Shown here in pieces: positions 23,421-40,633 of a DNA stretch of 59,149 nt. Positions within the stretch are counted from its first letter, which is position 1, and each line of letters begins with the position of its first letter. A model generated the notes under the pieces. The model worked only from the letters and a program-made list of their open reading frames with translations. It did not search any database and had not been told where the DNA came from. The translations under genes and the position numbers were made by a program. The DNA is from Iphinoe sp. HA4291-MV1 (GTDB taxonomy: Bacteria; Cyanobacteriota; Cyanobacteriia; Cyanobacteriales; Nostocaceae). Where the stretch lies: contig JAHHHH010000045.1 in the NCBI GenBank assembly GCA_019359415.1, forward strand, positions 1 to 59,149. Reading direction: 5' to 3'.

Positions 23421-24041
23421 ATGATTGCTCAACCCCAACATCAACTAATAACTCCCCAGGAGTATTTGGAATGGGAGGAACAACAACCCATTAAGTACGA
23501 ATATATTAACGGGGAAGTCTTCGCCATGACAGGGGGAACTATCCCTCACAACGATATTGCCCTAAACCTTGCATCCGCACTTCATACTCACCTACGAGGT
23601 AAGAGATGTAAAGTTCAGATGGCAGATGCCAAAGTGGGAGTTTCACTTCAGGGACCTTTTCACTATCCAGATGTGATGGTTAGTTGCGATCCGCTGGACC
23701 AAAGAGCGCGTAAGGTTATCTATCATCCCTGTTTAATTGTAGAAGTCTTATCTCCAAGTACAGAGGCATTCGATAGGGGAAAGAAATTTAGGCATTACCG
23801 TCGGATTGATACCTTAAAAGAATATGTTCTCATTGAGGCAGATAAAATGAATGTGGAATGCTATCGACTCAATGAGAAAGGAAAATGGGAACTCACTTCT
23901 TATTCACTTGAAGAAACGATAGAAGACGAAACAGAACTAAAGGTGTACTTAACCAGCGTTGATTTCCATTGCCCTATTTCTTTGCTGTATGAAGATGTTG
24001 TTTTTCCTGAAGATAATCCAGAAGAGATTTCTGATGACTAG
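23421..24041 (+). CDS. Uma2-family PD-(D/E)XK endonuclease-like protein
   Basis: A 206-residue protein of the Uma2/DUF820 family, greatly expanded in cyanobacteria and predicted to have a restriction-endonuclease fold. The family blocks are visible: TPQEYLEWEEQQPIKYEYINGEV at the start, then YPDVMVSCDP carrying the catalytic aspartate, and LIVEVLSPSTEAFDRGKKFRHYRR with the E...K elements. AAGGAGAT lies upstream of the ATG. No cellular role is proven for the family. A second, more divergent member lies at 39980. Confidence 0.9.
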   Translation: MIAQPQHQLITPQEYLEWEEQQPIKYEYINGEVFAMTGGTIPHNDIALNLASALHTHLRGKRCKVQMADAKVGVSLQGPFHYPDVMVSCDPLDQRARKVIYHPCLIVEVLSPSTEAFDRGKKFRHYRRIDTLKEYVLIEADKMNVECYRLNEKGKWELTSYSLEETIEDETELKVYLTSVDFHCPISLLYEDVVFPEDNPEEISDD

Positions 24042-24497
24042 ATCATAATAATTCGTGATTTACGATGCACCTGAATCAGGAACTTTGGTTTAACCCGCAT
24101 TTCTCACAAACAGTTGAAAGTTTAAGTTGTAAATATTTTTGTCCGATTACTTATGGGTAATTTACCGGACATCATAATAACCTGTGAACTACCCACCACC
24201 AACCCTGATGGGTAGCGATCTAGAACTTGATAAACAACTATGCCAGAGTTTTGCTGGAGAAAGTCCGCAGTAGTTTATGGTGACACGTACTTTTTCGTCT
24301 CGCTTTGTTTCTATGGCTTTGGGCTTTGCGTCCTCTCTGATAATATTGGGAAGAAATCAGCCTTTAGGAACTACCTCATTTAAGGAATTACATAAAATTT
24401 CAGCGAGCTAGTGTACTGGAAGCCTAAATGATTGACACTTAATACATATACATATCAGTTACTGGCTAAATGCCAGTCAGGTAGAAGGAATCATTGT
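24042..24497. other. Leader/promoter region of the stressosome-like operon, 456 bp
   Basis: No gene is supported here. Short inverted repeats are present, such as CTACCCA (24189-24195) with TGGGTAG (24209-24215), and GTCCG-ATTAC with GTAAT-CGGAC between 24141 and 24170. Neither is followed by a T run. The length leaves room for a regulated promoter and a long 5' leader. Confidence 0.5.
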
Positions 24498-25361
24498 ATG
24501 GGCTTGAGCAATGGAAGTAAAATTCCACAGGTGATAGAAAAATACGAAGCGGAATTGTTGGCTGATTGGATGCAAGTGCTCATGGCTAACAATACCCGCA
24601 AAGGTTTGTTGAAAGAGACGGAACTACAACAGGAGTGTCGGGAATTCCTCAGTTTGTTGAAAAAGGCGGTACAGCACGGTAACTTGACCAACGTGCAATC
24701 CTCCGAATGGCGGGATGTGCGAGAAATGCTAACCAGTATTTCTCGAACTCGCTCGCAAAAAGGCTTTACACCCTCGGAAACGGCTACCTTTATTTTTTCG
24801 TTTAAGCAACCTCTGTTTACTCGTTTGCGTCAGGAACACGCTGGAGACGCAAATGCGCTGGTTGAAGACACTTGGTTTGCTACCACTGTTATAGATCAGC
24901 TGGGACTATTGACCATAGAAGTTTACCAAAAGACGCGTGAAGAAGTCATCATTCGCCAGCAGGAAGAATTGATAGAACTTTCAACACCCGTTGTCAAGCT
25001 CTGGGAAGGAATTTTAGCTCTGCCCGTTATAGGCACTTTAGACAGCAGCCGCACTCAAGTGATGATGGAGTCTTTGTTGCAAAAAATTGTGGAGACGGGT
25101 TCAGAAATTGCCATTATTGATATTACTGGAGTGCCAACAGTAGATACGCTCACAGCTCAGCATTTACTGAAAACGGTTACTGCAGCTCGGTTAATGGGTG
25201 CAGAGTGCCTGATCAGCGGAATTCGCCCCCAGATTGCTCAAACGATTGTTTACCTTGGCGTAGATCTGGCAGACGTAGTGACAAAGGCGAGTTTAGCAGA
25301 CGCTTTCCTGTTGGCTCTAAAACGCCTTGGGCTGACAATCAACCGTCCGCAAGTTCGGTAA
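24498..25361 (+). CDS. rsbR: RsbR-like stressosome protein with C-terminal STAS domain
   Basis: A 287-residue co-antagonist of the RsbR type. The ATG at 24498 has AAGGA upstream and is preferred to an alternative start 22 codons earlier. Residues 1-150 form a helical sensor-like domain (RsbR N-terminal/RsbRD-like). Residues about 165-280 are a STAS domain. Both positions phosphorylated by RsbT in Bacillus RsbRA have a threonine here: Thr217 in VDTLTAQHLL and Thr249 in GIRPQIAQT. In Bacillus, RsbR and RsbS build a large icosahedral particle that holds RsbT until stress. RsbS starts 19 bp after its stop, so the genes are one operon. Confidence 0.92.
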   Translation: MGLSNGSKIPQVIEKYEAELLADWMQVLMANNTRKGLLKETELQQECREFLSLLKKAVQHGNLTNVQSSEWRDVREMLTSISRTRSQKGFTPSETATFIFSFKQPLFTRLRQEHAGDANALVEDTWFATTVIDQLGLLTIEVYQKTREEVIIRQQEELIELSTPVVKLWEGILALPVIGTLDSSRTQVMMESLLQKIVETGSEIAIIDITGVPTVDTLTAQHLLKTVTAARLMGAECLISGIRPQIAQTIVYLGVDLADVVTKASLADAFLLALKRLGLTINRPQVR

Positions 25362-25380
25362 GCAGTCAGGAGGTTTGATT

Positions 25381-25752
25381 ATGGAGCGCATTCCCATACT
25401 CCAGATGGGCGAATTCCTTTTAGTAAGCATTCAAGTTGATATGCACGATCGCCTAGCGATGACTTTGCAAGATGACCTGACAAATCGTATTATCGAGACT
25501 CAGGCTCGTGGGGTACTCATTGATATTTCCTCTTTAGAAATTGTGGATTCCTTTATTGGCAGAATCCTGGGGAACATTGCCAAGATGTCACAGATTCTTG
25601 ATGCTCAGACCGTTGTGGTTGGTATGCAACCTGCAGTTGCCATTACCTTAGTCGAGCTAGGACTTTCCTTAACAGGAATTCGCACCGCGTTAAACGTTGA
25701 AAAGGGCATGGCACTTCTGCGAACATCGCCCTCCGGCGATCGCTGGTGGTAG
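25381..25752 (+). CDS. rsbS: RsbS-like STAS-domain antagonist
   Basis: A 123-residue single STAS domain, the core scaffold protein of stressosomes. The ATG at 25381 follows AGGAGG at a good distance; a TTG two codons upstream is less likely. The phosphoacceptor serine is conserved: Ser57 in SLEIVDSFIGRIL. The VVVGMQPAVAITLVELG block and the LNVEKGMALL end match RsbS. Unphosphorylated RsbS binds RsbT; phosphorylation releases it (known for Bacillus). The stop overlaps the possible GTG start of rsbT, so the two are translationally coupled. Confidence 0.92.
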   Translation: MERIPILQMGEFLLVSIQVDMHDRLAMTLQDDLTNRIIETQARGVLIDISSLEIVDSFIGRILGNIAKMSQILDAQTVVVGMQPAVAITLVELGLSLTGIRTALNVEKGMALLRTSPSGDRWW

Positions 25753-25757
25753 CGCAG

Positions 25758-26162
25758 ATGGATATGCCCGGGAGTGAAACCATGAGTATCCAATCCTCAC
25801 AAGACGTGCTTTTGGTTCGGCAGACAGTGCGTCAGTTTGCCATCAAACTAGGGTTTAGCCTGGTAGATCAGACGAAAATTGTCACAGCAGCTAGTGAGCT
25901 AGCCCGTAATACTCTAGACTATGGAGGCGGTGGCACTGTAAAACTAGAAGCACTTGAGGATGGGAGGCGTCGCGGTTTGCGGCTCGTTTTTGAAGACTCG
26001 GGACCAGGAATACCAGATATCGACTTGGCACTTAAAGATGGTTACACCACAGGAAATGGGTTGGGTATGGGGCTGAGCGGTGCAAAGCGACTGGTGAACG
26101 AATTTGACATTGTCTCCCGTGTCGGTGAGGGTACCTGCGTTACGATGACAAAGTGGAAGTAA
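25758..26162 (+). CDS. rsbT: RsbT-like serine/threonine kinase (anti-sigma-factor-type ATPase)
   Basis: A 134-residue GHKL-type kinase. The N box is EASELARNT-like (AASELARNTLDYG) and the G1 box is EDSGPGIPD, followed by GNGLGMGLSGAKRLVNEFDI. These align closely with Bacillus RsbT, which phosphorylates RsbR and RsbS and then acts on a downstream partner. Start is uncertain: a GTG at 25746, the ATG at 25758, or an ATG at 25782 with GGGAG upstream. Bacillus RsbT activates the RsbU phosphatase. There is no RsbU or sigB-type gene here, so its output must differ; the fused kinases downstream are candidates. Confidence 0.9.
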   Translation: MDMPGSETMSIQSSQDVLLVRQTVRQFAIKLGFSLVDQTKIVTAASELARNTLDYGGGGTVKLEALEDGRRRGLRLVFEDSGPGIPDIDLALKDGYTTGNGLGMGLSGAKRLVNEFDIVSRVGEGTCVTMTKWK

Positions 26163-26169
26163 TAAGTTG

Positions 26170-27183
26170 ATGAAAGAAACCCTCGCCTTACCAATTTTAG
26201 AGCAAAGTCAAGCTAGTGAAGCGCGACGGAGCGCTCTATCTTTAGCAAGTCGTCTCGGTTTTACCGAGACTGAGCGCGGAAAGGTCGGTATTGTTGTGAC
26301 TGAAGTCGCTACTAACTTAGTACGACACGCTCAAGAAGGAGTACTGCTACTACGGGAAATTGAAAAGTATAAAATTGCGGGTCTGGAAGTTCTAGGGTTG
26401 GACAAAGGACCAGGAATGAGCAATATAGACGAGTGTATGCGTGATGGGTTTTCAACAGCGGGAGGTCCGGGAAATGGATTAGGAGCTATTAACCGTCTTT
26501 CACATTCTTTTGATATTCATTCCATCTTGGATGTGGGGACAGCTATCTTCAGCCACTTTTGGGCTAGCCCCTTACCCACAAGTCCACCTCCAGAGAATTT
26601 GGAGTTGGGAGTGGTGTGTCAGCCAAAGCTGGGAGAAGAAGTTTCAGGCGACACGTGGTCATGTGAAATGAGTCAAGAGCGCTGTCTAGTTATGGTTGCT
26701 GATGGGTTAGGTCATGGAGTGCTAGCCGCCCAAGCATCAACAGAAGCTGTGAGAGTTTTTCACGAAAATGTCCACCGCAGTCCTCGTGAAATTATGGAAG
26801 CAGCTCATTTAGCTCTACGAAGTACGCGAGGCGCAGCGCTGGCGATCGCAGAAATCAACTTTGCACATCAGTCTGTTCGCTTTGCTGGAGTGGGCAATAT
26901 TGCTGGCACTATCCTCTGGGATGCAAAACACCAAAACCTGGTTTCCTACAACGGTACGGTCGGACATGAAGTTCGCAAAATTCAAGAGTTTACTTATCAA
27001 TGGTATCCAGGCGCACTCTTGATTATGCATTCTGATGGTTTGGGAACTCAATGGCGATTAGAGCGCTATCCAGGTATCATCCACAAACATCCTAGCTTGA
27101 TTGCTGGCGTTCTCTATCGAGACTTTTACCGAGTTCGCGATGATGTGACTGTGCTGGTCGTTCGCGAGGCTTCCTCAAGATGA
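26170..27183 (+). CDS. RsbT/W-like ATPase domain fused to a SpoIIE/RsbX-type PP2C phosphatase
   Basis: A 337-residue fusion. Residues about 10-130 form a HATPase domain of the anti-sigma type (VVTEVATNLVRHA as N box, LDKGPGMSNIDE as G1 box, GGPGNGLGAINRLS). Residues about 140-335 form a PP2C-like phosphatase domain (GEEVSGDTWS, then VMVADGLGHGVLAA, IMHSDGLG and RDDVTVLVVR), closest to RsbX in layout. RsbX resets the Bacillus stressosome by dephosphorylating RsbR and RsbS, which is the likely role here (inference). It starts 7 bp after rsbT, and its stop overlaps the next start (ATGA at 27180-27183). Confidence 0.9.
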   Translation: MKETLALPILEQSQASEARRSALSLASRLGFTETERGKVGIVVTEVATNLVRHAQEGVLLLREIEKYKIAGLEVLGLDKGPGMSNIDECMRDGFSTAGGPGNGLGAINRLSHSFDIHSILDVGTAIFSHFWASPLPTSPPPENLELGVVCQPKLGEEVSGDTWSCEMSQERCLVMVADGLGHGVLAAQASTEAVRVFHENVHRSPREIMEAAHLALRSTRGAALAIAEINFAHQSVRFAGVGNIAGTILWDAKHQNLVSYNGTVGHEVRKIQEFTYQWYPGALLIMHSDGLGTQWRLERYPGIIHKHPSLIAGVLYRDFYRVRDDVTVLVVREASSR

Positions 27184-29318
27184 GTACTACCATCTTCACC
27201 TTAGAAATTCGCTACGAGCAAGATGTAGTGCAGACCCGTCAACAAGCACGAGCGATCGCCCAAGCTTTGGGATTTGATGCCCAAGACCAAGCACGCCTCG
27301 CCACAGCTGTTTCAGAAATCGCTCGGAATGCCTTTGTGTATGCCAAAGGTGGAACCGTTGAATTTTGGGTAGATGACTCCTCGCCCCAGAACTTTTGGAT
27401 TAGCATTCAGGATAGAGGTCCAGGTATTCCTAACTTACAGGCGATTTTAGATGGGCAATACACATCCAAAACTGGAATGGGATTGGGAATTATCGGCACT
27501 CGACGGCTGATGGATCGCTTTGAGATTTCATCGGTTCCGAACGAGGGAACCACTGTGTTAATGAGGAAGACTCTGCCAAAGCGCACATCTAAACTGACAT
27601 TTCAACGCTTGAAACAGATTCAAGATGAGTTGGCAAATCGAGAGCCACAAAATCCGTTTGAGGAAATTCAGCGACAAAACCAGGAACTGCTCCGCGCAAT
27701 GGAGGAACTACGCAAGCGTGAGGAGCAGTTAACTCAACTCAACCGCGAGCTAGAAGATACCAATCGCGGTGTCGTGGCTCTGTATGCCGAATTAGATGAA
27801 AAAGCTGATTCTCTACAAAAGGCTAATGAACTTAAGACGCGATTCCTCTCGAATATGAGCCATGAGTTTCGCACACCACTGAACTCGGTAGTGTCTCTGT
27901 CGCGGATCTTGTTAGATCGGATGGATGGTCCGTTGACAACAGAGCAGGAAAAGCAAGTTAGGTTCATGCAAAAAGCGGCGGAAGGTCTTTTGGATTTAGT
28001 CAACGACCTCTTAGACATATCAAAGGTAGAAGCCGGAAAAATTGACGTTCATCCTAGTGATTTTAAAGTCAGCGATTTGTTCGCGACTTTGAGAGGAATG
28101 CTGCGTCCCCTGCTTGCTCATAACACCTCGGTGGCGCTGGTCTTTGAAGAACCTGTTGACATTGCGCCCCTCCACACGGATGAAGGTAAAGTTGCCCAAA
28201 TTCTGAGAAACTTCATCTCCAATGGACTGAAATATACCGAACAGGGAGAGGTTCGCTTAGCAGCAGTCATGGCAGGTAACACCGTCACTTTCTCAGTAAC
28301 GGATACAGGTATCGGGATTGCACCGGAGGATCAAAAGCGGATTTTTGATGAATTTATTCAGATAGAATCTAAACTCCAAAAAAAAGTTAAAGGAACAGGT
28401 TTGGGACTACCGCTCTCGCGTAAATTGGCAGAATTGTTAGGAGGAAGCATCTGGGTGACCAGTGAAGTCGGCAAGGGATCTACATTTTTTGCGTCTATTC
28501 CACTAGTTTACTCCGGTGCTGCTGAAGTCTCCTCAACGTTTCAACCTACTTGGCAAATCGACCCAACTCGCCGCCCCCTTTTGGTAGTGGAAGACCATGA
28601 TGAAACTCTTTTTACTTACGAAAAGTATTTTCAGGGTTCGAGTTATCAGATAATTTCGGCACGAACGCTCAACGAGGCAAAGCAAGCGCTAACGGTGTGT
28701 CAGCCAATTGCCATTATCCTGGATATTTTATTAGAAGGAGAAAGCTCTTGGACATTCCTGGTGGAAACCAAAAGGAATGAAGCAACTAGAAGTATACCTA
28801 TTCTTGTTATTACCGTCATTGATAACGAAAAGCAAGTGATGGCTCAAGGAGCCAATGGATTCTTGATTAAACCTGTAGATAGATTCTTCCTGTTGAACAA
28901 ACTCAATACACTGGTCAAACAGGGCAGACAACAAAAGCTCTTACTTATAGATGACGACCAGGCATCCCGATACGTGTTAAAGCAACTTTTAGTCCCAAAT
29001 CCTTTGGAGATTATTGAAGCAGCGGATGGACGTGAAGGGATTCATTTAGCTCAAACCGAAAATCCTTGCTGTATTGTACTTGACCTAACTATGCCCGAAA
29101 TAAGTGGCATGGAAGTTTTAGACCAGCTCAAAAGCAACCCCGCCACTAGTGCGATTCCCGTAATTGTCAATACATCAAAACAGCTCGAATCCCAAGAACA
29201 AAACTTTCTTGCTCAACGCACTGTGGCAATTCTTTATAAAGAAACCCTTTCTCAAGAAGTTGCGATCGCTCAACTATGGGAAGCCCTCACAAAAGCTGGG
29301 TTAGTCTTAAATATCTGA
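27180..29318 (+). CDS. Hybrid histidine kinase with N-terminal RsbT-like ATPase domain
   Basis: A 712-residue multi-domain protein. Residues 1-135 are a second RsbT-like HATPase (AVSEIARNAFVYA, QDRGPGIPN, GMGLGIIGTRRLMDRF). A coiled coil (about 150-220) leads to a HisKA domain with His228 in SHEFRTPLNS, and a catalytic HATPase domain (about 330-440, with GTGLGLPLSRKL). Two receiver domains end the protein, near 462-575 (VVEDHDE, then a possible acceptor in LDILLEG) and 590-705 (LLIDDDQ, LDLTMPEISG). It has no PAS or membrane sensor, so input probably comes through the N-terminal RsbT-like domain binding the RsbR/RsbS particle (inference). Confidence 0.93.
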   Translation: MSTTIFTLEIRYEQDVVQTRQQARAIAQALGFDAQDQARLATAVSEIARNAFVYAKGGTVEFWVDDSSPQNFWISIQDRGPGIPNLQAILDGQYTSKTGMGLGIIGTRRLMDRFEISSVPNEGTTVLMRKTLPKRTSKLTFQRLKQIQDELANREPQNPFEEIQRQNQELLRAMEELRKREEQLTQLNRELEDTNRGVVALYAELDEKADSLQKANELKTRFLSNMSHEFRTPLNSVVSLSRILLDRMDGPLTTEQEKQVRFMQKAAEGLLDLVNDLLDISKVEAGKIDVHPSDFKVSDLFATLRGMLRPLLAHNTSVALVFEEPVDIAPLHTDEGKVAQILRNFISNGLKYTEQGEVRLAAVMAGNTVTFSVTDTGIGIAPEDQKRIFDEFIQIESKLQKKVKGTGLGLPLSRKLAELLGGSIWVTSEVGKGSTFFASIPLVYSGAAEVSSTFQPTWQIDPTRRPLLVVEDHDETLFTYEKYFQGSSYQIISARTLNEAKQALTVCQPIAIILDILLEGESSWTFLVETKRNEATRSIPILVITVIDNEKQVMAQGANGFLIKPVDRFFLLNKLNTLVKQGRQQKLLLIDDDQASRYVLKQLLVPNPLEIIEAADGREGIHLAQTENPCCIVLDLTMPEISGMEVLDQLKSNPATSAIPVIVNTSKQLESQEQNFLAQRTVAILYKETLSQEVAIAQLWEALTKAGLVLNI

Positions 29319-29328
29319 GAGAAAAACT

Positions 29329-31686
29329 ATGTCAAAGCCGGTAGTCACTATCTTGCATATTGACGACAACGAAACAAATCGTTATGTTGTCGCTCGCGTC
29401 TTGCGAAATGCTGGCTTTGCGGTTGTCGAAGCAAGCACAGGTGAGGAGGGGTTGAGCGCGATCGCTCAAACTCAACCCGACTTGGTGATTCTGGATGTCA
29501 AGCTTCCTGATATAAACGGTTTTGAAGTTTGTCATCAAATAAAATCCAACCCAGCGACTGCTCACCTTCCCGTGCTTCATCTGTCTGCCCATTTTATTAA
29601 GAGCCAGGACAAAGCTCAAGGGTTAAATGGCGGTGCAGATGCTTTCCTAGCCCAACCAGTTGAGTCTATTGAGTTAATTGCCACGGTGAATGCGTTACTG
29701 AGGATGCGGCGAGCTGAGGAGTCAGCTTTAGCTCGCTCTCGGGAGTGGCAAACAACTTTCGACTCCATTCGGGATGGGGTTGGGTTACTTGATCGTGAAG
29801 GTAGATTCCTGCGTTGTAACAAAGCCATGACGGAGCTTTTGAGTAAACCGTCTTGCGAAATCATTGGGTGCTTACATCAGGATCTAATGCCTGTATCACT
29901 ATCTAGCTCCAATGTCAACCCCTTTCTTCGTATTCAAGAAACTCGACATCGTGAAAGCTTGGTCATTCACACTGGAGGACGGTGGTTTTCTGTAACAGTA
30001 GATCCTGTGCTAGATGAGTACAAATCGTTTATTGGTGCTGTTTACATCCTCGCTGATATGACGGCTCGCAAGCAGGCAGAAATAGCTTTGCGAGCAAGCG
30101 AAGAGCGGTTCCGCCTGCTGTTGGAAAACGTGAAGGACTATGCCATTTTGTTCTTAGATCAGCAAGGGCGGGTGACTGGTTGGAGCCTGGGAGCCGAGTA
30201 TATGCTGGGCTATCAGGAAGTAGAGATTCTCGGACAGCCTGGCTCCATTATTTTTACACCAGAAGATTTGCAGCAAAGCTCAGACAAGCTAGAACTGAAA
30301 AAAGCGGTGACAGAAGGTCGAGCTGAGAATGAACGCTGGCATAGAAGAAAAGACGGCAGCCGTTTTTGGGGAAGTGGCATCGTCACACCCTTACGAGATG
30401 AAACCGGACAGCTACGAGGCTTCTGTAAAATACTGCGTGATTTTACGGAACGGAAGCGAATTGAAGACGAACGAATTCAACTACTTGAGCGCGAGCAACA
30501 GGCACGAAGTACAGCAGAAGCAGCCAATCGCATGAAGGATGAATTCTTGGCGACTCTTTCGCACGAACTCCGCTCTCCCCTCAATGCCATGCTGGGGTGG
30601 ATTCGCTTACTCAATACTCGCAAGTTTGACGCAGTCACAACCGCACGTGCAATGGAGACGATTGAGCGCAGTGCCAAGTCACAAGCGCAACTGGTAGAAG
30701 ATTTACTTGATGTCTCCCGCATTATTCAGGGTAAACTCCGGTTGAATATTCGTCCCATTGAACTAGTTCCGGTGATTGAAGCAGCACTAGAAACGGTGCG
30801 TCCAGCTGCTAATGCTAAAGAAATTCAACTTCAATGTGTGCTTGATCCAACAGCAGGTTCAGTTGCAGGTGATTCTGATCGTTTGCAGCAAGTTGTCTGG
30901 AACTTATTAACGAATGCAGTCAAGTTCACTCACTCAGGAGGACTGGTTCTAGTCGGGCTAGAACGTGTGAACTCTCATATCGAAATTACAGTGACAGATA
31001 CAGGTAAAGGAATCAGCCCTGAGTTTGTCCCTTATGTGTTCGAGCGCTTTCGACAGGCTGACAGTTCAACGACTCGCACCTACAGTGGATTAGGACTGGG
31101 GTTAGCGATTGTGCGTCATTTGGTAGAGTTGCATGGTGGAACCGTTCATGCACATAGTCAAGGTGAAGGAAAGGGAGCAACCTTTACAGTTCAGTTACCA
31201 CTTGTTAAAGAAAGCAGCAGAGCCGGGGAGTCCAGGAGCAGGAGAGAAAAGAATTCTGCTCCTCCTGTGCTGTATAGCTCTAAACCTTTGCCCATACTTG
31301 ATGAAATGCGAATACTAGTGGTTGACGATGAAGCTGATACGCGTGATTTTCTTGTCGCTGCAATAGAGATGTGTGGGGCGCAAGTGATTGCAGTTTCATC
31401 AGTCATTGAGGCACTTCAAGTCATCTCACAACAGAGATTGGATGCCCTAGTGAGCGACATTAGTATGCCAGGAGAAGACGGCTACAGCTTAATACGTAGG
31501 GTACGGACACTCCCCAAAGAGCAAGGAGGGGATATCCCAGCAGTGGCATTAACAGCTTATGCCAGAGATGAAGACATGATGCGATCGCTCTCCCAAGGGT
31601 TTCAAATGCACTTGTCTAAGCCTGTGGAACCAGATGAATTGGCGAGTGTGGTTGCGAGCTTAGTGAAAAAAACTGGAAAAGGGTAA
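29329..31686 (+). CDS. Hybrid histidine kinase: REC-PAS-PAS-HisKA-HATPase-REC
   Basis: A 785-residue soluble hybrid kinase. It opens with a receiver domain (LHIDDNETNRYVV, acceptor in VILDVKLPDINGF), followed by two PAS domains (about 140-260 and 265-385; DITERK-type ends as DMTARKQAE and DFTERKRIE). The HisKA domain has SHELRSPLNAMLGW near 410, and the HATPase domain has GLGLGLAIVRHLVELHGG. After a charged linker a second receiver starts near 660 (ILVVDDEADTRDF, acceptor in VSDISMPGEDGYS). It begins 10 bp after the previous kinase and closes the stressosome-like operon. It is the likely next relay step. Its kinase core is closely related to the kinase at 37658. Confidence 0.94.
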   Translation: MSKPVVTILHIDDNETNRYVVARVLRNAGFAVVEASTGEEGLSAIAQTQPDLVILDVKLPDINGFEVCHQIKSNPATAHLPVLHLSAHFIKSQDKAQGLNGGADAFLAQPVESIELIATVNALLRMRRAEESALARSREWQTTFDSIRDGVGLLDREGRFLRCNKAMTELLSKPSCEIIGCLHQDLMPVSLSSSNVNPFLRIQETRHRESLVIHTGGRWFSVTVDPVLDEYKSFIGAVYILADMTARKQAEIALRASEERFRLLLENVKDYAILFLDQQGRVTGWSLGAEYMLGYQEVEILGQPGSIIFTPEDLQQSSDKLELKKAVTEGRAENERWHRRKDGSRFWGSGIVTPLRDETGQLRGFCKILRDFTERKRIEDERIQLLEREQQARSTAEAANRMKDEFLATLSHELRSPLNAMLGWIRLLNTRKFDAVTTARAMETIERSAKSQAQLVEDLLDVSRIIQGKLRLNIRPIELVPVIEAALETVRPAANAKEIQLQCVLDPTAGSVAGDSDRLQQVVWNLLTNAVKFTHSGGLVLVGLERVNSHIEITVTDTGKGISPEFVPYVFERFRQADSSTTRTYSGLGLGLAIVRHLVELHGGTVHAHSQGEGKGATFTVQLPLVKESSRAGESRSRREKNSAPPVLYSSKPLPILDEMRILVVDDEADTRDFLVAAIEMCGAQVIAVSSVIEALQVISQQRLDALVSDISMPGEDGYSLIRRVRTLPKEQGGDIPAVALTAYARDEDMMRSLSQGFQMHLSKPVEPDELASVVASLVKKTGKG

Positions 31687-33511: not shown

Positions 33512-36500
33512 ATGCCTAACTTCACTGTTACTAAAAATGTTTCACAAGCTGCAAGTGTCTTTGTTATTTGCCTTGGTTGTATCGTATTGATTGGCTGGAT
33601 ATTTGATATTGCCTTATTTAAGAGTATGCTGCCAGGACTGGTGACAATGAAAGTCAATGCAGCGATCGCTTTTTTATTATCTGGGGTGTCGCTTTGGTTT
33701 TTGTCAAGAAAGCAATGGGCAATGGGCAATGGGCAATGGGCAATGGGCAACGGGCAATGGGCAATGGGCAATGGGCAACGGGCAACGGGCAATGGGCAAT
33801 TCTCAATTCCCAATTACCAATTCCCATCTCCCTCATCTCTCTCATCCCCCTCATCTCCTTCACTCCTTATTGCCCAAGGGTGTGCGATCGCAGTTACCAC
33901 AATTGGACTACTGACATTATGTCAATACCTCTTTGGGTGGGATTTAGGAATTGACGAACTGCTGTTTCGTGACTCACCGCAAGCTGTAGAAACGTCTCAT
34001 CCAGGTCGGATGGGGATAAATTCAGCCGTTAATTTTCTGCTATCGGGTTTGGCGCTGTGGTTGATGGGGCAGAAAACTCACCGCAGTTATTGGTTGGCTC
34101 AGAGTTTGAGCTTGATTGTGGCTTTGATTTCTTTGCAAGCATTTGTTGGCTATGCCTATGGGGTGAAAAATTTTTACAGGTTCGGCGTTTATACTACCTC
34201 AATGGCGTTACATGCAGCACTAGCATTTGGGGTGCTGTGTTTGGGAGTGTTATACACCCATCCTGATCGCGGATTCATGCAAACGATTACTAGTGAACTC
34301 AATGGTGGCGCGATCGCTCGTAGGCTCATACCAAATGTGATCGTGCTCCCCCTCATTTTCGGCTGGTTGATTCTTTTTGGGCAAAGGGCGAAATTATACG
34401 ACTCCGCCTTTAGCATCTCGCTGCTCGTAGTGTCGCTGGATGTCATGTTTTTGATGCTAATTTGGCGTAATGCATGGTTTATTAACCACGTGGATAGCGA
34501 TCGCAAAAAGGTTTTGCAGATGCTAAAGCAGCAAACTGCGACGTTACAAGAGCAAGCCGAACTGTTGGAGTTGACGTATGAGGCAATCTTTGTCCGTGAT
34601 GCCCAAAATGTCATTACCTACTGGAACCGAGGGGCAGAGGAAATGTATGGCTACTCAAAAGTAGAAGCCATAGGACAGGTGAGCCATAGACTTTTACAAA
34701 CCCAATTATCAGAAGGTGTTGAAAACCTCGATACTACGCTGCTGCAAACAGAGTGTTGGCAGGGTGAACTAATTCACACTCGCAAAGACGGGAGGCAAAT
34801 TGTCGTAGAAAGCCGTCAGGTGACAATTCACAACTCGCAGGGTGAACTTACTGGATTTTTGGAAGTCAACCGCGATATCACTAGACGCAAGCAAGTTGAA
34901 GAAGCACGACGTCAAAGTGAAGCACGATTGAGGCTATTTGTCAACTCAGAGATCATTGGCATTGTCATTGGCGATGTGTATGGGGGACTCAGTGAGGTCA
35001 ATGATGCCTACCTCCACATTATTGGTTATACGCGTAAAGATTTCCTACAAGGTCGAGTGCGCTGGACTGATATAACTCCAAGGGAGCATCTACCGTTAGA
35101 TGAAGCAGCGATCGCGCAAGCGAAGGTCAAGGGAGTATGCACTCCTTACGAAAAAGAATATATCCGCAAAAACGGCTCTCGTGTTCCGGTGTTAGTTGGC
35201 TTTGCCCTCATTGGGAAGCAACAGGAAGAAGCGATCGCCTTCATTTTAGATATTAGCGAACGCAAGCGAGCCGAAGCAGAACGCGATCGCTTCTTTACAC
35301 TATCGGTCGATATGCTCTGCATCACCGGATTGGATGGTTACTTCAAGCGTGTCAATCCGGCTTTTGAGAGAATTCTCGGCTACACTCAAGCAGAACTACT
35401 CACCACACCATTTATTGAGTTTGTACATCCAGAAGATCGAGCAAAAACTTTGGCAGAAGTGGAGAAGCTCGCAGCGGGAGCCGTGACACTCAATTTCGAG
35501 AACCGCTACCGCTGCAAAGATGATTCCTACAAATGGCTAGTCTGGAATGCTGCTCCTGATGTTGAGTTGGGGTTGCTGTATGCGGTTGCCCATGATATCA
35601 CTGAGCACAAACAGATAGAGCAGACGCTGCAAGAGGCGGCAGAAGCTTTGCGAATTAGTAGAGAACGTCTGGATTTGGTCATTCAGGAAGTAGAAGTCGG
35701 TTTGTGGTACTGTGACTTACCGCTGGACAAACTCATTTGGAATGACCAGTGCAAAGCGCATTTTGGTCTACCACCCGATGCCGATGTGACTATTGATTTA
35801 TTTTATCAACTCCTACATGATGATGACCGCGAACCCACACGCCAAGCAGTTCAGCACGCTATTGAGCAGGCGATCGGTTATGACGTGGACTACCGCACAG
35901 TTGCCCCAGATGGACACATACGCTGGATTCGGGCAATTGGACGCGCTTTCTGTGATGCGGCTGGCATACCAAAGCGCTTTGACGGCATTACGATCGACAT
36001 TAGCGATCGCAAACGAGCCGAAGCTGTCCTTATTGAAAGCGAGCAACGCTTTCGCTATGTCACTGATACTGCTCCGATGATGGTTTGGATGTCTGGTACA
36101 GATCGGCACTGTACTTACTTTAATAAACCTTGGTTGGATTTTACCGGACGGACGATGGAGCAGGAACTAGGCAATGGTTGGGCAGAAGGTGTGCATCCTA
36201 ATGATTTACCGTGTTGTCTAGAAACTTACATCAATTCTTTTGATACCCGCCAATATTTTCAAATGGAATATCGCCTGCGACAATTTGATGGAGAATATCG
36301 TTGGATTTTAAATATTGGCGTGCCTCGGTTTACTTCAGAAGGAGAATTTCTGGGTTACATCGGCTCTTGTGTAGATATTGAAGACCGCAAGCAAGGCGAA
36401 GCTCAAATTCAACATAGCAACGAAACTTTGGAAGAACGGGTCAAACAGCGCACAGCTCAACTAGAAGCTGCTAACCGAGAGCTAGAATCCTTTTCTTACT

Positions 36501-37168
36501 CTGTCTCTCATGACTTACGGGCACCATTGCGCCACATCACCGGATTCGTTGACCTGCTGCAAAAACGTCTTTTATCAACAGGGTTGGATGACACCAGTAG
36601 ACGATACCTCAACATTATTACCGAAGCGACCAAACAAGCGGGTAAATTAATTGATGATTTGTTAACTTTCTCCCGTGTGGGGCGCTCTGAAATACGCCAT
36701 ACCACCGTTGACATGAATCTATTGGTGCGGGAAGTGCAACGCGATCTCGAACTAGAAACCAAAAATCGTCAGGTTTCTTGGCAAATAGAATCCTTGCTTC
36801 AGATACATGGCGATCCCTCCATGTTGCGGCTAGTTCTGCGCAACCTACTGGAGAATGCCCTCAAATATAGCAAAACTCGTTCCATAACAAAAATTACCGT
36901 AGGCAGTATCAGCAGTGATCAAGAAGTGGTATTCTTCGTGCGAGATAACGGCATTGGTTTTGATATGAAATATGTTGATAAATTATTTGGCGTTTTTCAA
37001 CGACTACATAGCGACCCACAATTTGAAGGCACGGGTGTAGGATTGGCAAATGTCCAACGCATTATTCACCGTCATGGCGGACGCGTTTGGGCAGAAGGTG
37101 AAATAGACAATGGAGCGACTTTTTATTTTTCGCTACCAAGGGGGTCTGGAGTGAAAAGTGGAGAGTAG
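33512..37168 (+). CDS. Membrane-anchored sensor histidine kinase with five PAS domains
   Basis: A 1218-residue sensor. The N-terminal 340 residues hold about seven membrane helices (for example [15 protein letters not shown] and [18 protein letters not shown]), a MASE-like input region. Five PAS domains follow between about 345 and 960, each ending in a DIxxRK-type motif. A phytochrome-class HisKA domain has His near 1000 in [16 protein letters not shown], then a HATPase with DNGIGFD and [18 protein letters not shown]. The signal is unknown. Residues 68-95 are encoded by twelve CAATGGG-type heptamers that fill a loop between membrane helices. An Rcp1-like response regulator starts 10 bp downstream, so the two form a kinase/regulator pair. 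Confidence 0.94.
33713..33796. repeat. Twelve tandem CAATGGG/CAACGGG heptamers inside a kinase gene
   Basis: Twelve 7-bp units run without a break: units 1-5, 7-9 and 12 are CAATGGG, units 6, 10 and 11 are CAACGGG. The 84 bp equal 28 codons, so the frame is kept, and three heptamers encode one QWAMGNG unit (residues 68-95). CAATTCTCAATTCCCAATT and a pyrimidine-rich tract follow to about 33870. Confidence 0.95.
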
Positions 37169-37178
37169 AGAGTATACG

Positions 37179-37655
37179 ATGGAACTAAAGCGCATTCTCC
37201 TAGTTGAAGACAGCATTAACGATGTTGAGTTAATCCTGACTTCACTGGCAGAAAACCATCTGGGCAATGAAGTCGTTGTCGTTCGTGACGGTGAAGAAGC
37301 ATTGGATTACCTCTATCGTCGAGGCATGTATCGTTTGCGCCGTGAGGGTCATCCCGTCGTGGTGCTACTTGATCTGAAGTTACCAAAAGTTGATGGGATA
37401 GAAGTCCTGACGCAACTCAAAGCTAACCCAGAATTGCGAGTGGTGCCAGTTGTGGTGTTGACTTCTTCCCGAGAAGAGCAGGATCTCGCTCGCTGTTACG
37501 AACTTGGTACTAATGCTTATGTGGTCAAGCCAATCGATTTTCTTGAATTTGTTGAAGTTATCAAAGGTTTGGGATTATTTTGGGCAATAATTAATGAACC
37601 CCCTCCCGGTTCCATACCTCCGGCACGCAGTAGTCAAGGAGTCGCAGGAATATAG
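37179..37655 (+). CDS. Rcp1-like single-domain response regulator
   Basis: A 158-residue CheY-like receiver. I start at the ATG at 37179 (MELKRILLVED); an alternative in-frame start at 37158 overlaps the kinase gene. The acidic pocket is VEDSINDVEL, the phosphoacceptor lies in VLLDLKLPKVDGIEVL, and the conserved threonine/lysine pair is TSSREE and VVKPIDF. The insertion around YLYRRGMYRLRREG is characteristic of the Rcp1 group, which pairs with phytochrome-class kinases. It sits between two kinase genes, starting 10 bp after one and ending 2 bp before the other, so it probably takes phosphate from the upstream kinase. Confidence 0.95.
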   Translation: MELKRILLVEDSINDVELILTSLAENHLGNEVVVVRDGEEALDYLYRRGMYRLRREGHPVVVLLDLKLPKVDGIEVLTQLKANPELRVVPVVVLTSSREEQDLARCYELGTNAYVVKPIDFLEFVEVIKGLGLFWAIINEPPPGSIPPARSSQGVAGI

Positions 37656-37657
37656 CC

Positions 37658-39949
37658 ATGTCAGGTCTAAGGTTTCTCTTGCTGGAAGATAATTTGCTGG
37701 ATGCAGAACTCATCCATGCTCTGTTAACTGAAGGTGGTATTGCCTGTGAACAGGTGCAGGTGAAAACGCAAGCGGAATTCCAGACAGCGTTAGAGCAAAA
37801 TTGCTTTGACCTGATTCTTTCAGATTACGCCTTGCCTGAATTTGATGGTATTACGGCTCTAGATATGGCACAGCATCACTGTCCGGATACTCCCTTCATT
37901 TTTGTCACCGCAACAATGGGGGAGGAAGTCGCCATTGAAACCCTCAAAAGTGGTGCCATTGACTATGTGCTGAAGCAAAGATTAGAGCGTTTAGTGCCTT
38001 CGGTACGTCGTGCGCTACGCGAAGCCCGGTATCGACTCGCCTGCAAAATGGCAGAGGTAGAACTGTACCGTCGCGAGCAGGAGTTTAGAGCTTTAGCGGA
38101 AAACTCACCAGACGCGATCGCTCGCATTGATAGAGAACTCCGCTACTGCTACGTAAATCCCGCAACAGAAATAGCAACAGGGATACCATTAGAAAAGTGG
38201 ATTGGCAAAACCATTGCCGAAATGGGGTATCTAGAGGAACTTTCGACAACTTGGCAAGCGAGATTGCGCCAAGTGTTTGCTACAGGAATTGGCTGTTGGA
38301 TAGAGTTCGATGTTCCCTCACATAAGGGACGCATTTACTACCAAGCACGAATCGTGCCAGAATATACTCAAAATGGTTCTGTACAATCATTACTGAGCAT
38401 TGCTCGTGACGTGACGGAGTACAAACTGGCAGAACAAGCATTACAGAAAAGCGAGGCTCAGTTACGGCAACAGAAGGAAGAATTGGAACGGGCAAACCAA
38501 ATTAAGGATGAGTTTTTGGCAGTGCTTTCCCATGAATTGCGATCGCCACTCAATGCCATCCTAGGTTGGTCAAAAATACTACGTACCCGCAAATTGGATA
38601 CAACAACCTTAAGTCGTGCCTTGGAAACAATTGAGCGCAATGCCAAATTACAGACACAACTCATTGAAGATTTACTGGATGTATCGCGCATTATTCGTGG
38701 CAAATTGACTCTGCGCCCCTACCCAACAAATTTGATTCCAGCAATTGAAGCCGCAATAGATACAATGCGTCTAGCAGCTCAAGCCAAATCTATTGATTTG
38801 CAATTCATCATTGTAGACTCTGGATTGGAAACAGAGAACACAATAATAAGCAGACAAGAAGAAACAGGAGCAACACAGGGAGAGAGTGAAAAAGGGATGC
38901 AAACAACTCTTGTTCCCTCGCTCCCTGACTCCCTCACTCTCCCCATTCCCCAACCCCAGTCGCCACCCTCATGGGAAATCCTGAGCCAGCCATCTAAAAT
39001 TCAAGAGCAAAAATTCTACGTTTTAGGCGATCCGAGCCGATTACAGCAAATCGTCTGGAATCTTCTTTCTAACGCTATCAAGTTTACCCCACAGGGAGGA
39101 CGGATAGAAGTGCTGGTTGAAAGAGTTGGGGGAGATGAGGAAGCAGAAGAGGATAAGGGGACATGGGGCAAAGGGCAAGGGGCAAAGGGCAAGGGGCAAT
39201 GCTCGATTCCTAGTTCTCAATGCCCAATGCCCAATGCCCAATTCCCAATTCCCACTTCCCACTCCTCGGAGTCTGTCAAAATTACGGTGAAAGACACAGG
39301 TATCGGTATACAATCAGATTTTATTCCTTACGTATTTGACTCTTTTCGTCAGGCGGATGGTTCTACCACTCGCACACAGGGGGGTTTGGGCTTGGGTTTG
39401 GCAATTGTACGTCACCTAGTAGAACTGCATGGTGGAACTGTCAGCGCAGAAAGTGCCGGAGAAGGAAAAGGCGCGACATTTACAGTACAATTGCCAGTCC
39501 TTGAGAATAGAGATAAGGAAAGAGGGAAAGGAAAAGATAGGAGAAAAAATTCTTCTAACCCATCATCTCCATTAGAAGGAGTGCACATCTTGGTGGTAGA
39601 TGATGATGCTGACTCACGAGATTTTTTGGTATTCGCTTTAGAGGATTTTGGAGCGAATGCCACTGCTGTCACCAGTGCTTCTTCAGCCCTAGAGATTCTG
39701 ATGACATTCAAACCAGATATACTCATCAGTGATATTGGTATGCCTGAGCAAGATGGCTATAGCTTGATTCGCCAGGTGAGAGAATTACCCAGCGAAGAGG
39801 GAGGACAAATTCCGGCGATCGCCCTTACAGCATATGCTGGAGAAAGGGACCGTCAAGAAGCGATCGCAGCTGGTTTTCAAAGACATCTCTCTAAGCCTGT
39901 GACGCCAGAACAACTCGTGAATGTCATTGCGGAACTTGTGCGTGATTGA
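37658..39949 (+). CDS. Hybrid histidine kinase: REC-PAS-HisKA-HATPase-REC, with repeat-derived insertions
   Basis: A 763-residue hybrid kinase. The receiver at 5-120 (LLLEDNLLDAELI, acceptor in LILSDYALPEFDG) is followed by a PAS domain (about 145-260), a HisKA domain with SHELRSPLNAILGW near 290, a HATPase domain (GLGLGLAIVRHLVELHGG) and a C-terminal receiver (LVVDDDADSRDF, acceptor in ISDIGMPEQDGYS). Compared with the kinase at 29329, two extra low-complexity segments break the kinase core: about 60 residues encoded near 38823-39011, and about 45 residues encoded near 39130-39272. The second is built from a GGGCAA/CCCAAT repeat. It starts 2 bp after the response regulator. Confidence 0.93.
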   Translation: MSGLRFLLLEDNLLDAELIHALLTEGGIACEQVQVKTQAEFQTALEQNCFDLILSDYALPEFDGITALDMAQHHCPDTPFIFVTATMGEEVAIETLKSGAIDYVLKQRLERLVPSVRRALREARYRLACKMAEVELYRREQEFRALAENSPDAIARIDRELRYCYVNPATEIATGIPLEKWIGKTIAEMGYLEELSTTWQARLRQVFATGIGCWIEFDVPSHKGRIYYQARIVPEYTQNGSVQSLLSIARDVTEYKLAEQALQKSEAQLRQQKEELERANQIKDEFLAVLSHELRSPLNAILGWSKILRTRKLDTTTLSRALETIERNAKLQTQLIEDLLDVSRIIRGKLTLRPYPTNLIPAIEAAIDTMRLAAQAKSIDLQFIIVDSGLETENTIISRQEETGATQGESEKGMQTTLVPSLPDSLTLPIPQPQSPPSWEILSQPSKIQEQKFYVLGDPSRLQQIVWNLLSNAIKFTPQGGRIEVLVERVGGDEEAEEDKGTWGKGQGAKGKGQCSIPSSQCPMPNAQFPIPTSHSSESVKITVKDTGIGIQSDFIPYVFDSFRQADGSTTRTQGGLGLGLAIVRHLVELHGGTVSAESAGEGKGATFTVQLPVLENRDKERGKGKDRRKNSSNPSSPLEGVHILVVDDDADSRDFLVFALEDFGANATAVTSASSALEILMTFKPDILISDIGMPEQDGYSLIRQVRELPSEEGGQIPAIALTAYAGERDRQEAIAAGFQRHLSKPVTPEQLVNVIAELVRD
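39161..39262. repeat. Composite GGGCAA / ATGCTCGATTCC / CCCAAT repeat inside a kinase gene
   Basis: The plus strand reads a run of GGGCAA-type units (39164-39199), the core ATGCTCGATTCC (39199-39210), then CCCAATG and CCCAATT units to about 39262. The same core between the same kinds of units occurs at 42382-42428. The insertion keeps the reading frame within the HATPase domain. Confidence 0.85.
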
Positions 39950-39979: not shown

Positions 39980-40633
39980 ATGGTCAGTAGCCTGAAAGAA
40001 CTGATTGAAGAACCAGGGCTAGCTCGTGCAAACGATCCAGAGGAGAGGTTCATTACCAGTGATATGAGTTGGCAGGACTATGAAGCGCTACTAGTCAGAC
40101 TAGAGGACAACTCTCATTATCGTGTCACTTACTTAGATGGAATATTAGAAATTGTGTCGCCCTCAATCAGGCATGAAAATATAAAAACGAATTTGGGTAT
40201 GCTACTAGAGCGTTTTTTCTATAGCAAACGCATTCGTTTTGTCCCTATGGGAAGCTCTACTTTTAAAAACAGAGCAAGAAAAGCTGGGGCGGAACCAGAT
40301 GAGTGTTACTGCATAGGAGAAGCGAAAAGTGTACCAGACTTAGCCATAGAAGTGATTATTACTAGCGGTAGCATAAGCAAACTGGAGGTTTACCGACGCT
40401 TAGGAGTCAGAGAGGTTTGGTTTTGGGAGAGATATCAATTTAAGCTGTACCACATCCGGGACAATTCCCAAACTGAACAAGCCACTGTTTACCCTGACAC
40501 CTATAGGTACGAACAAATAAAGTCAAGCGAGTTGTTACCACAGTTAGATATATCCCTGCTAGAACAATGCATCTCAATTTCCGACTCCATTCAAGCAGTT
40601 GATGAATTTGAGCAAGGCATCAATAAGGAATGA
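39980..40633 (+). CDS. Uma2-family PD-(D/E)XK endonuclease-like protein
   Basis: A 217-residue protein of the Uma2 family. The family start MSWQDYEALLVRLEDN, the YLDGILEIVSP strand pair, and the catalytic blocks AEPDECYCIGE, PDLAIEVI and KLEVYRRLGVREVWFWE are present. It differs strongly from the other Uma2 protein at 23421. GAGGA lies upstream of its ATG, 30 bp after the hybrid kinase. Co-direction with the kinases looks incidental. Role unknown. Confidence 0.9.
   Translation: MVSSLKELIEEPGLARANDPEERFITSDMSWQDYEALLVRLEDNSHYRVTYLDGILEIVSPSIRHENIKTNLGMLLERFFYSKRIRFVPMGSSTFKNRARKAGAEPDECYCIGEAKSVPDLAIEVIITSGSISKLEVYRRLGVREVWFWERYQFKLYHIRDNSQTEQATVYPDTYRYEQIKSSELLPQLDISLLEQCISISDSIQAVDEFEQGINKE

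Follow-up and report, generated by a model that had tools for sequence, protein, structure and literature searches.

The 59,149-nucleotide contig JAHHHH010000045.1 of the cyanobacterium Iphinoe sp. HA4291-MV1, referred to here as the window, carries at positions 24498-31686 a six-gene operon, all on the plus strand, in which a stressosome-type gene set (rsbR, rsbS, rsbT and an rsbX-like gene) is followed by two hybrid histidine kinase genes. A first-pass annotation made from the sequence alone had described six tightly packed genes with two overlaps and had assigned domains to their products. The open reading frames and their spacing (gaps of 13, -7, 4, -4 and 10 bp, with starts rechecked) agree with that description, as do the Pfam assignments for all six proteins. 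The fourth and fifth products are called TX and TH below.

24498-25361, plus strand: RsbR-type co-antagonist, RsbRD_N sensor plus STAS domain (Pfam), with Thr217 and Thr249 at the phosphosite positions
25375-25752, plus strand: RsbS-type protein with a single STAS domain (Pfam), phosphosite Ser59 from the TTG start at 25375 (Ser57 from the ATG at 25381)
25746-26162, plus strand: RsbT-type GHKL serine/threonine kinase, stand-alone, adjoining rsbS (Pfam HATPase_c/HATPase_c_2)
26167-27183, plus strand: TX, an N-terminal RsbT/RsbW-type ATPase domain plus an RsbX-like PP2C phosphatase (Pfam HATPase_c_2 and SpoIIE), PP2C Asp motifs intact
27180-29318, plus strand: TH, RsbT-like ATPase domain (about residues 1-135)-HisKA-HATPase_c-REC-REC (Pfam HATPase_c_2, HisKA, HATPase_c and two REC)
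27180-27734, plus strand: input module of TH, the RsbT-like domain with the first part of the linker (about residues 1-185), the segment that also occurs joined to GGDEF in two Acidobacteriota genomes
29329-31686, plus strand: sixth gene, REC-PAS-PAS-HisKA-HATPase_c-REC hybrid kinase (Pfam)

For rsbR, a TTG upstream at 24432 is an alternative start. Thr217 and Thr249, which we take to be the equivalents of Bacillus subtilis T171 and T205, lie exactly where the annotation had placed the RsbR phosphoacceptors, and its RsbS Ser57 is Ser59 when counted from the TTG start. This serine sits in a VDS motif that is invariant across 21 aligned RsbS sequences, the window protein sharing 70-87% identity with its 20 aligned relatives. 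Judged by sequence, the RsbR-RsbS-RsbT set has the make-up of a stressosome: a sensor-plus-STAS protein with two threonines, a single-STAS protein with a serine, and an intact stand-alone RsbT. The hybrid-kinase motifs in the operon are likewise intact (HisKA His and REC Asp; in TH, SHEFRTP at residues 227-233), and the sixth-gene kinase is likely the phospho-partner of TH. In line with the annotation, RsbV, RsbW and sigma-B were found in the operon neither in the list of open reading frames nor by Pfam, no RsbU_N was found by Pfam in the six operon proteins, and Pfam found no sensor domain in TH beyond the RsbT-like domain at its N-terminus. No DNA-binding regulator is encoded in the operon. 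The locus resembles B. subtilis rsbRSTUVW-sigB-rsbX in having RsbR, RsbS and RsbT with their phosphosites, in the R-S-T order and in the RsbX-like phosphatase. Unlike the B. subtilis operon, it is without RsbU_N, RsbV, RsbW and sigma-B, its TX has an extra ATPase domain, and its output histidine kinase begins with an RsbT-like domain.

Conservation was assessed over 110 loci, 30 from 29 genomes of the window's class and the best 80 of at least 498 confirmed GTDB loci. All were retrieved with TH as bait, which is present in them by construction; for counts of distinct operons, copies identical in parts of RsbT and TX were removed. The order R-S-T-TX-TH was found in 98 of the 110 loci and in 86 of the 87 distinct complete operons besides the window's (presence of RsbT being part of the definition of completeness); L165, with TH placed in front, is the one out-of-order locus. 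At least one gene was missing from 11 loci, of which six lie at contig ends or on short contigs, two (L088 and L089) together make up the split operon of a single genome, and three (L149, L166 and L176) are TX-TH pieces with no R-S-T in the flank. A REC-first gene follows TH in 71 of the 87 other distinct operons, contig ends being scored as misses. The gene order is conserved beyond chance, and R-S-T-TX-TH is a conserved module.

By residues 1-185 of TH, the four nearest records among the best 80 of at least 498 are Scytonema, Tolypothrix and two Brasilonema (80-82% identity). Twenty distinct operons are non-cyanobacterial by record title, many of them metagenome-assembled genomes, the titles naming Rokubacteria, Capsulimonas, Deltaproteobacteria, Chloroflexi, Binatia, Acidobacteria, Spirochaetes, Gammaproteobacteria, Nitrospira, Planctomycetota, Alphaproteobacteria and Nitrosospira; read from such titles, the module spans about ten phyla. 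The Nitrosospira title (L172) is doubtful, as this locus nearly coincides in the tree with L158 (Nitrospira). At ten non-cyanobacterial loci the protein downstream of TH was REC-first and multidomain in seven, a lone REC in one, transglutaminase-like in one and without a match in one (L144 and L158 were scored as REC-first from the operon gene-order count); at L083, TH is without REC and the next gene encodes an MBOAT protein. Among plasmid records, 21 match the RsbT-like part of TH, 17 of them from Deinococcus, and all three plasmid surroundings inspected read STAS-STAS-ATPase-phosphatase-TH. The megaplasmid pMP1 of Deinococcus radiodurans R1 holds a six-gene module (NZ_CP038993.1, 25219-31024; L330:6076-11881; E5Q09_RS15105-RS15130 region) in which TH has one REC, annotated merely as STAS, anti-sigma regulatory factor and ATP-binding proteins.

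The ancestry of the fused domain was examined in a tree of 25 TH, 25 RsbT and 25 TX ATPase domains together with three RsbW-like proteins of the host genome (138 columns). TH domains formed a single clade (support 100/100), and a 100/100 branch separated TH plus RsbT from both the TX domains and the RsbW-like outgroup; RsbT formed one group in 79% of bootstrap trees and TX in none. On this tree, in which the bootstrap had not settled, outgroup branches are long and B. subtilis RsbT is absent, the N-terminal domain of TH is placed as a sister or descendant of RsbT. An AlphaFold2 model of TH residues 1-147 reached a predicted local distance difference test score (pLDDT) of 92, and Foldseek ranked SpoIIAB at 1-6 and RsbW at 7-12 before the first kinase domain; both SpoIIAB and RsbW are STAS-binding proteins. 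In the full-length monomer model (mean pLDDT 84.5, predicted template-modelling score (pTM) 0.40), a helix at 141-153 is followed by an 87-residue helix, 159-245, that enters HisKA. The Foldseek rows listed for full-length TH were kinase structures only and do not inform on the N-terminus; the best was the hybrid kinase ShkA (6qrj; 501 alignment columns, 24% identity), which is not known to have an RsbT-like domain or a tie to stressosomes.

The six tested ATP-site residues (Glu46, Asn50, Asp78, Gly80, Gly101 and Gly103) were intact in 102/102 RsbT and 103/109 TH, counts that include copies of the same genome. Such intact sites are what would be expected if the TH domain were a second serine/threonine kinase for RsbS/RsbR, a dual-specificity TH then tuning the stressosome with its histidine kinase part governed otherwise. 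Against this stand the six remaining TH (L080, L088, L091, L122, L169 and L174), in which ATP-site residues are altered and both helix-1 arginines are kept, suggesting that kinase activity may not always be needed, and the fact that Pfam shows no other sensor domain in TH; we consider a second kinase quite improbable. Two of these altered proteins are found at L088:3456-5450 (minus strand) and L091:9608-11719 (plus strand), that of L088 being the most changed.

The two TH arginines, Arg20 and Arg24, align with RsbT's own helix-1 pair. The correspondence of positions to R19, R23, N24 and D92 of B. subtilis RsbT is presumed here. Across the 88 distinct operons, TH has Arg at the R19 position in 88/88 and at the R23 position in 86/88; RsbT has Arg at each of the two in 87/88. 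In TX the first arginine is kept in 104/105 and the second is L, V, M, I or A in at least 99/105. The N24 position is mostly Gln or Glu in these proteins. In B. subtilis RsbT, the interface with RsbU includes R19, R23 and N24, and D92 is shown together with R91 of the RsbU linker (Baral 2025, PMC12143880).

Since loci found with TH as bait contain TH by construction, searches that began from RsbS were used as the test of association, type I and type II RsbS being separated by score. In the window's class, RsbS was detected in 31 of 291 genomes (profile search, E ≤ 1e-20), and 30 of them coincide with the full set of TH-bearing genomes (45-70% identity, the window aside), two of which, G034 and G118, gave TH as split matches (62/47% and 55/41%). 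The 31st, G256, is 76% complete and gave partial TH matches only. For Methylomirabilota and Acidobacteriota, a genome was counted as having TH when it matched the RsbT-like module strongly; the protein behind this match was annotated or profiled in G296 and G340 of 11 genomes, and in G394, G527, G599, G628, G638, G678 and G736 of 13. RsbS was present in 31 of 95 Methylomirabilota genomes (E ≤ 1e-15), 11 with type I (better than 1e-68) and 20 with the second type only (about 1e-30 to 1e-35). The module (E ≤ 1e-75) was matched in all 11 type-I genomes and in 0/20 of the type-II-only genomes, though the latter have RsbT; G340 holds both RsbS types on separate contigs. Among 347 Acidobacteriota genomes, 31 had RsbS (E ≤ 1e-20), of which 13 carry type I (about 1e-64 or better) and 17 the second type only, and the module (E ≤ 1e-40) was found in 12/13 and 0/17, respectively, in a search that scored at most nine candidates per genome and could thereby miss one (G522 was inspected by hand). 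G628, whose RsbS is in two pieces on opposite strands and which lies outside the 13, also has the module.

Eight of nine type-II loci in Methylomirabilota read R-S-T-PP2C, the PP2C protein being without an ATPase domain, with a receiver gene farther along; the ninth, L267, runs to the end of its contig. The three annotated type-II kinases (L263, L265 and L266) are RsbU_N-PAS-HisKA_3-HATPase proteins, and the two annotated receivers carry LuxR-type DNA-binding domains, a layout resembling the described arrangement (Heinz 2022, PMC9237108; Baral 2025, PMC12143880). Within this phylum, the slot before the kinase holds, in the proteins annotated, either RsbU_N, the known RsbT receptor, or an RsbT-like domain. 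As a separate observation, Methylomirabilota with the second RsbS type encode further proteins (226-445 residues) with an RsbT-like domain. Three were checked, and frames similar to them occur at L270, L272, L273 and L275.

L269:4630-5967, minus strand: RsbT-like domain, C-terminal behind a Pfam-less region
L271:4641-5543, minus strand: RsbT-like domain, C-terminal behind a Pfam-less region
L274:3553-4350, minus strand: RsbT-like domain, C-terminal behind a Pfam-less region

The effector behind the RsbT-like domain is not always a TH-type kinase. In the Acidobacteriota genomes G638 and G678, the place of TH behind R-S-T-TX is taken by an RsbT-like domain, linker and GGDEF (L324:8366-9496, minus strand; L325:6907-8037, plus strand), a 376-residue protein with a GGEEF motif and the arginine pair. 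Its linker starts TH-like (DPFQELERQNQELLRAL), and the DTNRGVVALYAELDE stretch of the kinases is absent; the two fusions, being very similar proteins, probably represent one event. In G736 the module precedes a kinase core that is only distantly TH-like. Read together with the kinase of G522 described below, these cases put the module border near residue 185. They bring into view a wider proposal, which we advance tentatively and with a little less than even confidence, that the RsbT-like domain with its linker is a general stressosome output adaptor. Such a covalent RsbT-effector fusion, used with histidine kinases in several phyla and with a diguanylate cyclase at least once, would put the effector on the stressosome surface in competition with RsbT and TX, and would replace the handshake between RsbT and RsbU_N.

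The annotation had named an RsbU/RsbV/RsbW module elsewhere that binds this RsbT as evidence that would count against it. No RsbU was found in the host assembly, a draft of 7.36 Mb and 95% completeness, in which the sole RsbU_N match over the Pfam cut-off lies in KaiA. This candidate (G000:C121; L180:1234-1764) was rejected as an RsbU: Pfam identifies it as KaiA, and the genes after it read as KaiB- and KaiC-like. That the Pfam RsbU_N model scores KaiA over its cut-off makes it an easy false lead for RsbU in cyanobacteria. Beyond the operon, the genome gave six SpoIIE-family, three over-cut-off HATPase_c_2 and seven STAS matches. The six other SpoIIE-family proteins comprise a SpoIIE with a sub-cut-off GAF, a bare SpoIIE, two REC-SpoIIE, a REC-GAF-SpoIIE and an ordinary PP2C, and none carries RsbU_N by Pfam.

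The reading that we favour, with confidence slightly better than even, is that the operon encodes a sigma-B-free stressosome and that TH carries its RsbT-like domain as an input module which docks on that stressosome and takes the place of RsbU_N. RsbR and RsbS would form a STAS core that RsbT phosphorylates on stress and that TX, recruited by its own ATPase domain, would dephosphorylate and reset. The RsbT-like domain of TH would dock on the same STAS proteins as RsbT; with the core unphosphorylated, the domain would stay bound there, and the long coiled coil leading to HisKA would be kept in an inactive register. Once RsbT phosphorylates RsbS/RsbR, docked RsbT-type domains would be released, the TH linker would settle and the kinase would fire, phosphate then passing to the REC domains of TH and of the next gene's product and on to a regulator encoded outside the operon. 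The step in B. subtilis in which free RsbT finds RsbU and acts on RsbU_N and its linker would be collapsed into one chain. Docking with release is preferred on the analogy of RsbU, in which RsbT orders a flexible linker (PMC12143880). The annotation's proposal that control by the stressosome reaches the kinase via the fused domain has gained comparative support from the ancestry of the domain, its SpoIIAB/RsbW fold match, the arginine pair, the tracking of one RsbS type in three genome groups and the GGDEF swap; the parts that we infer are the binding to RsbR/RsbS, the triggering by release, whether control is positive or negative, the order of the phosphorelay and its output.

As to sign, docking could instead activate, the stressosome clustering TH such that the kinase is on in unstressed cells and off on stress. 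The domain layout is equally compatible with such a scheme, and in Vibrio vulnificus deletion of RSTX or of the downstream kinase gives similar phenotypes (PMC10014275), as expected if the stressosome promotes the kinase. In Bacillus and Listeria, however, the core restrains RsbT until its release by stress (PMC12143880, PMC12154155), and activation by docking seems to us very improbable.

Several observations weigh against docking and release as set out above. The D92 equivalent is Asp in 86/88 RsbT and 8/9 type-II RsbT, and in only 2/88 TH; TH, as aligned, keeps the helix-1 face of RsbT without the linker-contact residue. Retention in RsbT with loss in TH fits an RsbT that acts in trans on some linker, and free RsbT may thus bind and activate TH, the RsbT-like domain serving as a dimerising receptor in place of RsbU_N with RsbT contacting both it and the linker. 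RsbT is present in every complete operon (by definition of that count) and keeps the R19, R23 and D92 equivalents (87/88, 87/88 and 86/88), of which D92 contacts the RsbU linker in B. subtilis (PMC12143880). In addition, RsbU_N, the known RsbT receptor, fills the same place in three type-II Methylomirabilota operons. The fused domain is nevertheless related to RsbT, the ligand, and not to RsbU_N, the receptor. RsbT is also not known to bind another RsbT-like domain, which weighs against activation in trans, and overall we regard such activation as rather unlikely.

Returning to docking and release, the full-length TH model is a monomer with a pTM of 0.40 and bears on neither dimer state nor docking. 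The operon can also persist without the RsbT-like domain: in the Acidobacteriota genome G522 (L323:9403-10350, plus strand), an R-S-T-TX operon has at the place of TH a kinase without it, which starts just before the conserved pre-HisKA helix and retains the DTNRGVVALYAELDE stretch. When nine genomes whose TH locus was without its neighbours were checked, RsbS was absent from the assembly for L149, L176 and L147 and present as a fragment only for L166. Extra conservation of RsbS, considered as a sign of extra partners, was not seen; mean identity in Methylomirabilota was 0.83 for the 11 type-I proteins vs 0.93 for 9 of 21 type-II proteins, and conservation thus gives no support for such partners. 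Finally, a 2025 meeting report states that B. subtilis RsbT is able to drive the response without the RsbR paralogs and RsbS (PMC13037399), which weakens release-only models and leaves room for stress sensing by the RsbT-like domain itself.

Coupling of stressosomes to kinases without sigma-B is already published (Heinz 2022, PMC9237108; Baral 2025, PMC12143880), so the annotation's description of a stressosome wired to kinases instead of RsbU and sigma-B holds for this operon and concerns a kind of system known before. According to Heinz 2022 (PMC9237108), RSTX modules are known from Cyanobacteria, Bacteroidetes, Proteobacteria and others, and those of V. vulnificus (VvD1/VvD2) are like the present operon in being sigma-B-free with two-component genes directly downstream. 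Vibrio-type RsbX is a single PP2C domain, whereas the window PP2C is fused behind an ATPase; the surveyed RsbR proteins are globin-coupled, whereas the window RsbR is RsbRD_N plus STAS only (Pfam); and the downstream protein has RsbU_N or no recognised RsbT contact, whereas that of the window has an RsbT-like domain. The same source finds most of the downstream proteins under its consideration to be without RsbU_N, suggests that RsbT may phosphorylate the kinase, reports that contact between RsbT and the kinase could not be shown in V. vulnificus, and names HATPase_c among the domains of the surveyed clusters in the legend of its Figure 3. The RsbU_N-histidine kinases of Proteobacteria and the RsbU_N-GAF-GGDEF protein of Moorella (MtG) (PMC12143880) share with TH and its GGDEF counterpart a small N-terminal module, a coiled-coil linker and exchangeable dimeric histidine kinase or GGDEF outputs; they differ in that the module here is an RsbT-like ATPase, not RsbU_N. 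No fusion of an RsbT-like domain with a histidine kinase or GGDEF, and no D. radiodurans stressosome, was found described in titles and the beginnings of abstracts among the matches listed; the Pane-Farre surveys of 2005 and 2017, outside that search, could mention one.

The operon is flanked by a Uma2 gene upstream and an EcsC-type gene downstream. Uma2-family genes lie on both sides of the signalling region, at 23421-24041 and 39980-40633. The kinase genes downstream of the operon, at 33512-39949, do not travel with it in the six closest relatives (L100-L105) within the 14.5 kb examined, and their matches there are to the operon's sixth gene. The matches in these relatives were at 85-91% for RsbR and 72-81% for the sixth gene. 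The window AcnB, Uma2 and EcsC-type genes had no match in the 14.5 kb of each, of which at most about 4 kb precedes rsbR. A 7-bp tandem repeat, GCAATGG, runs in frame for 12.7 copies at window 33712-33800, within the N-terminal part of the PAS-rich kinase gene 33512-37168, and encodes an AMGNGQW-type peptide repeat.

How sigma-B-free stressosomes transmit their signal is an open question, to which the fused RsbT-like domain would offer a direct physical link as an answer. The copy in D. radiodurans R1, a laboratory strain that is harmless and open to genetic manipulation, lets the idea be tested outside a draft cyanobacterium. If it is true, RsbT would serve both as a released messenger and as a pluggable input domain, offering an alternative to RsbU_N.

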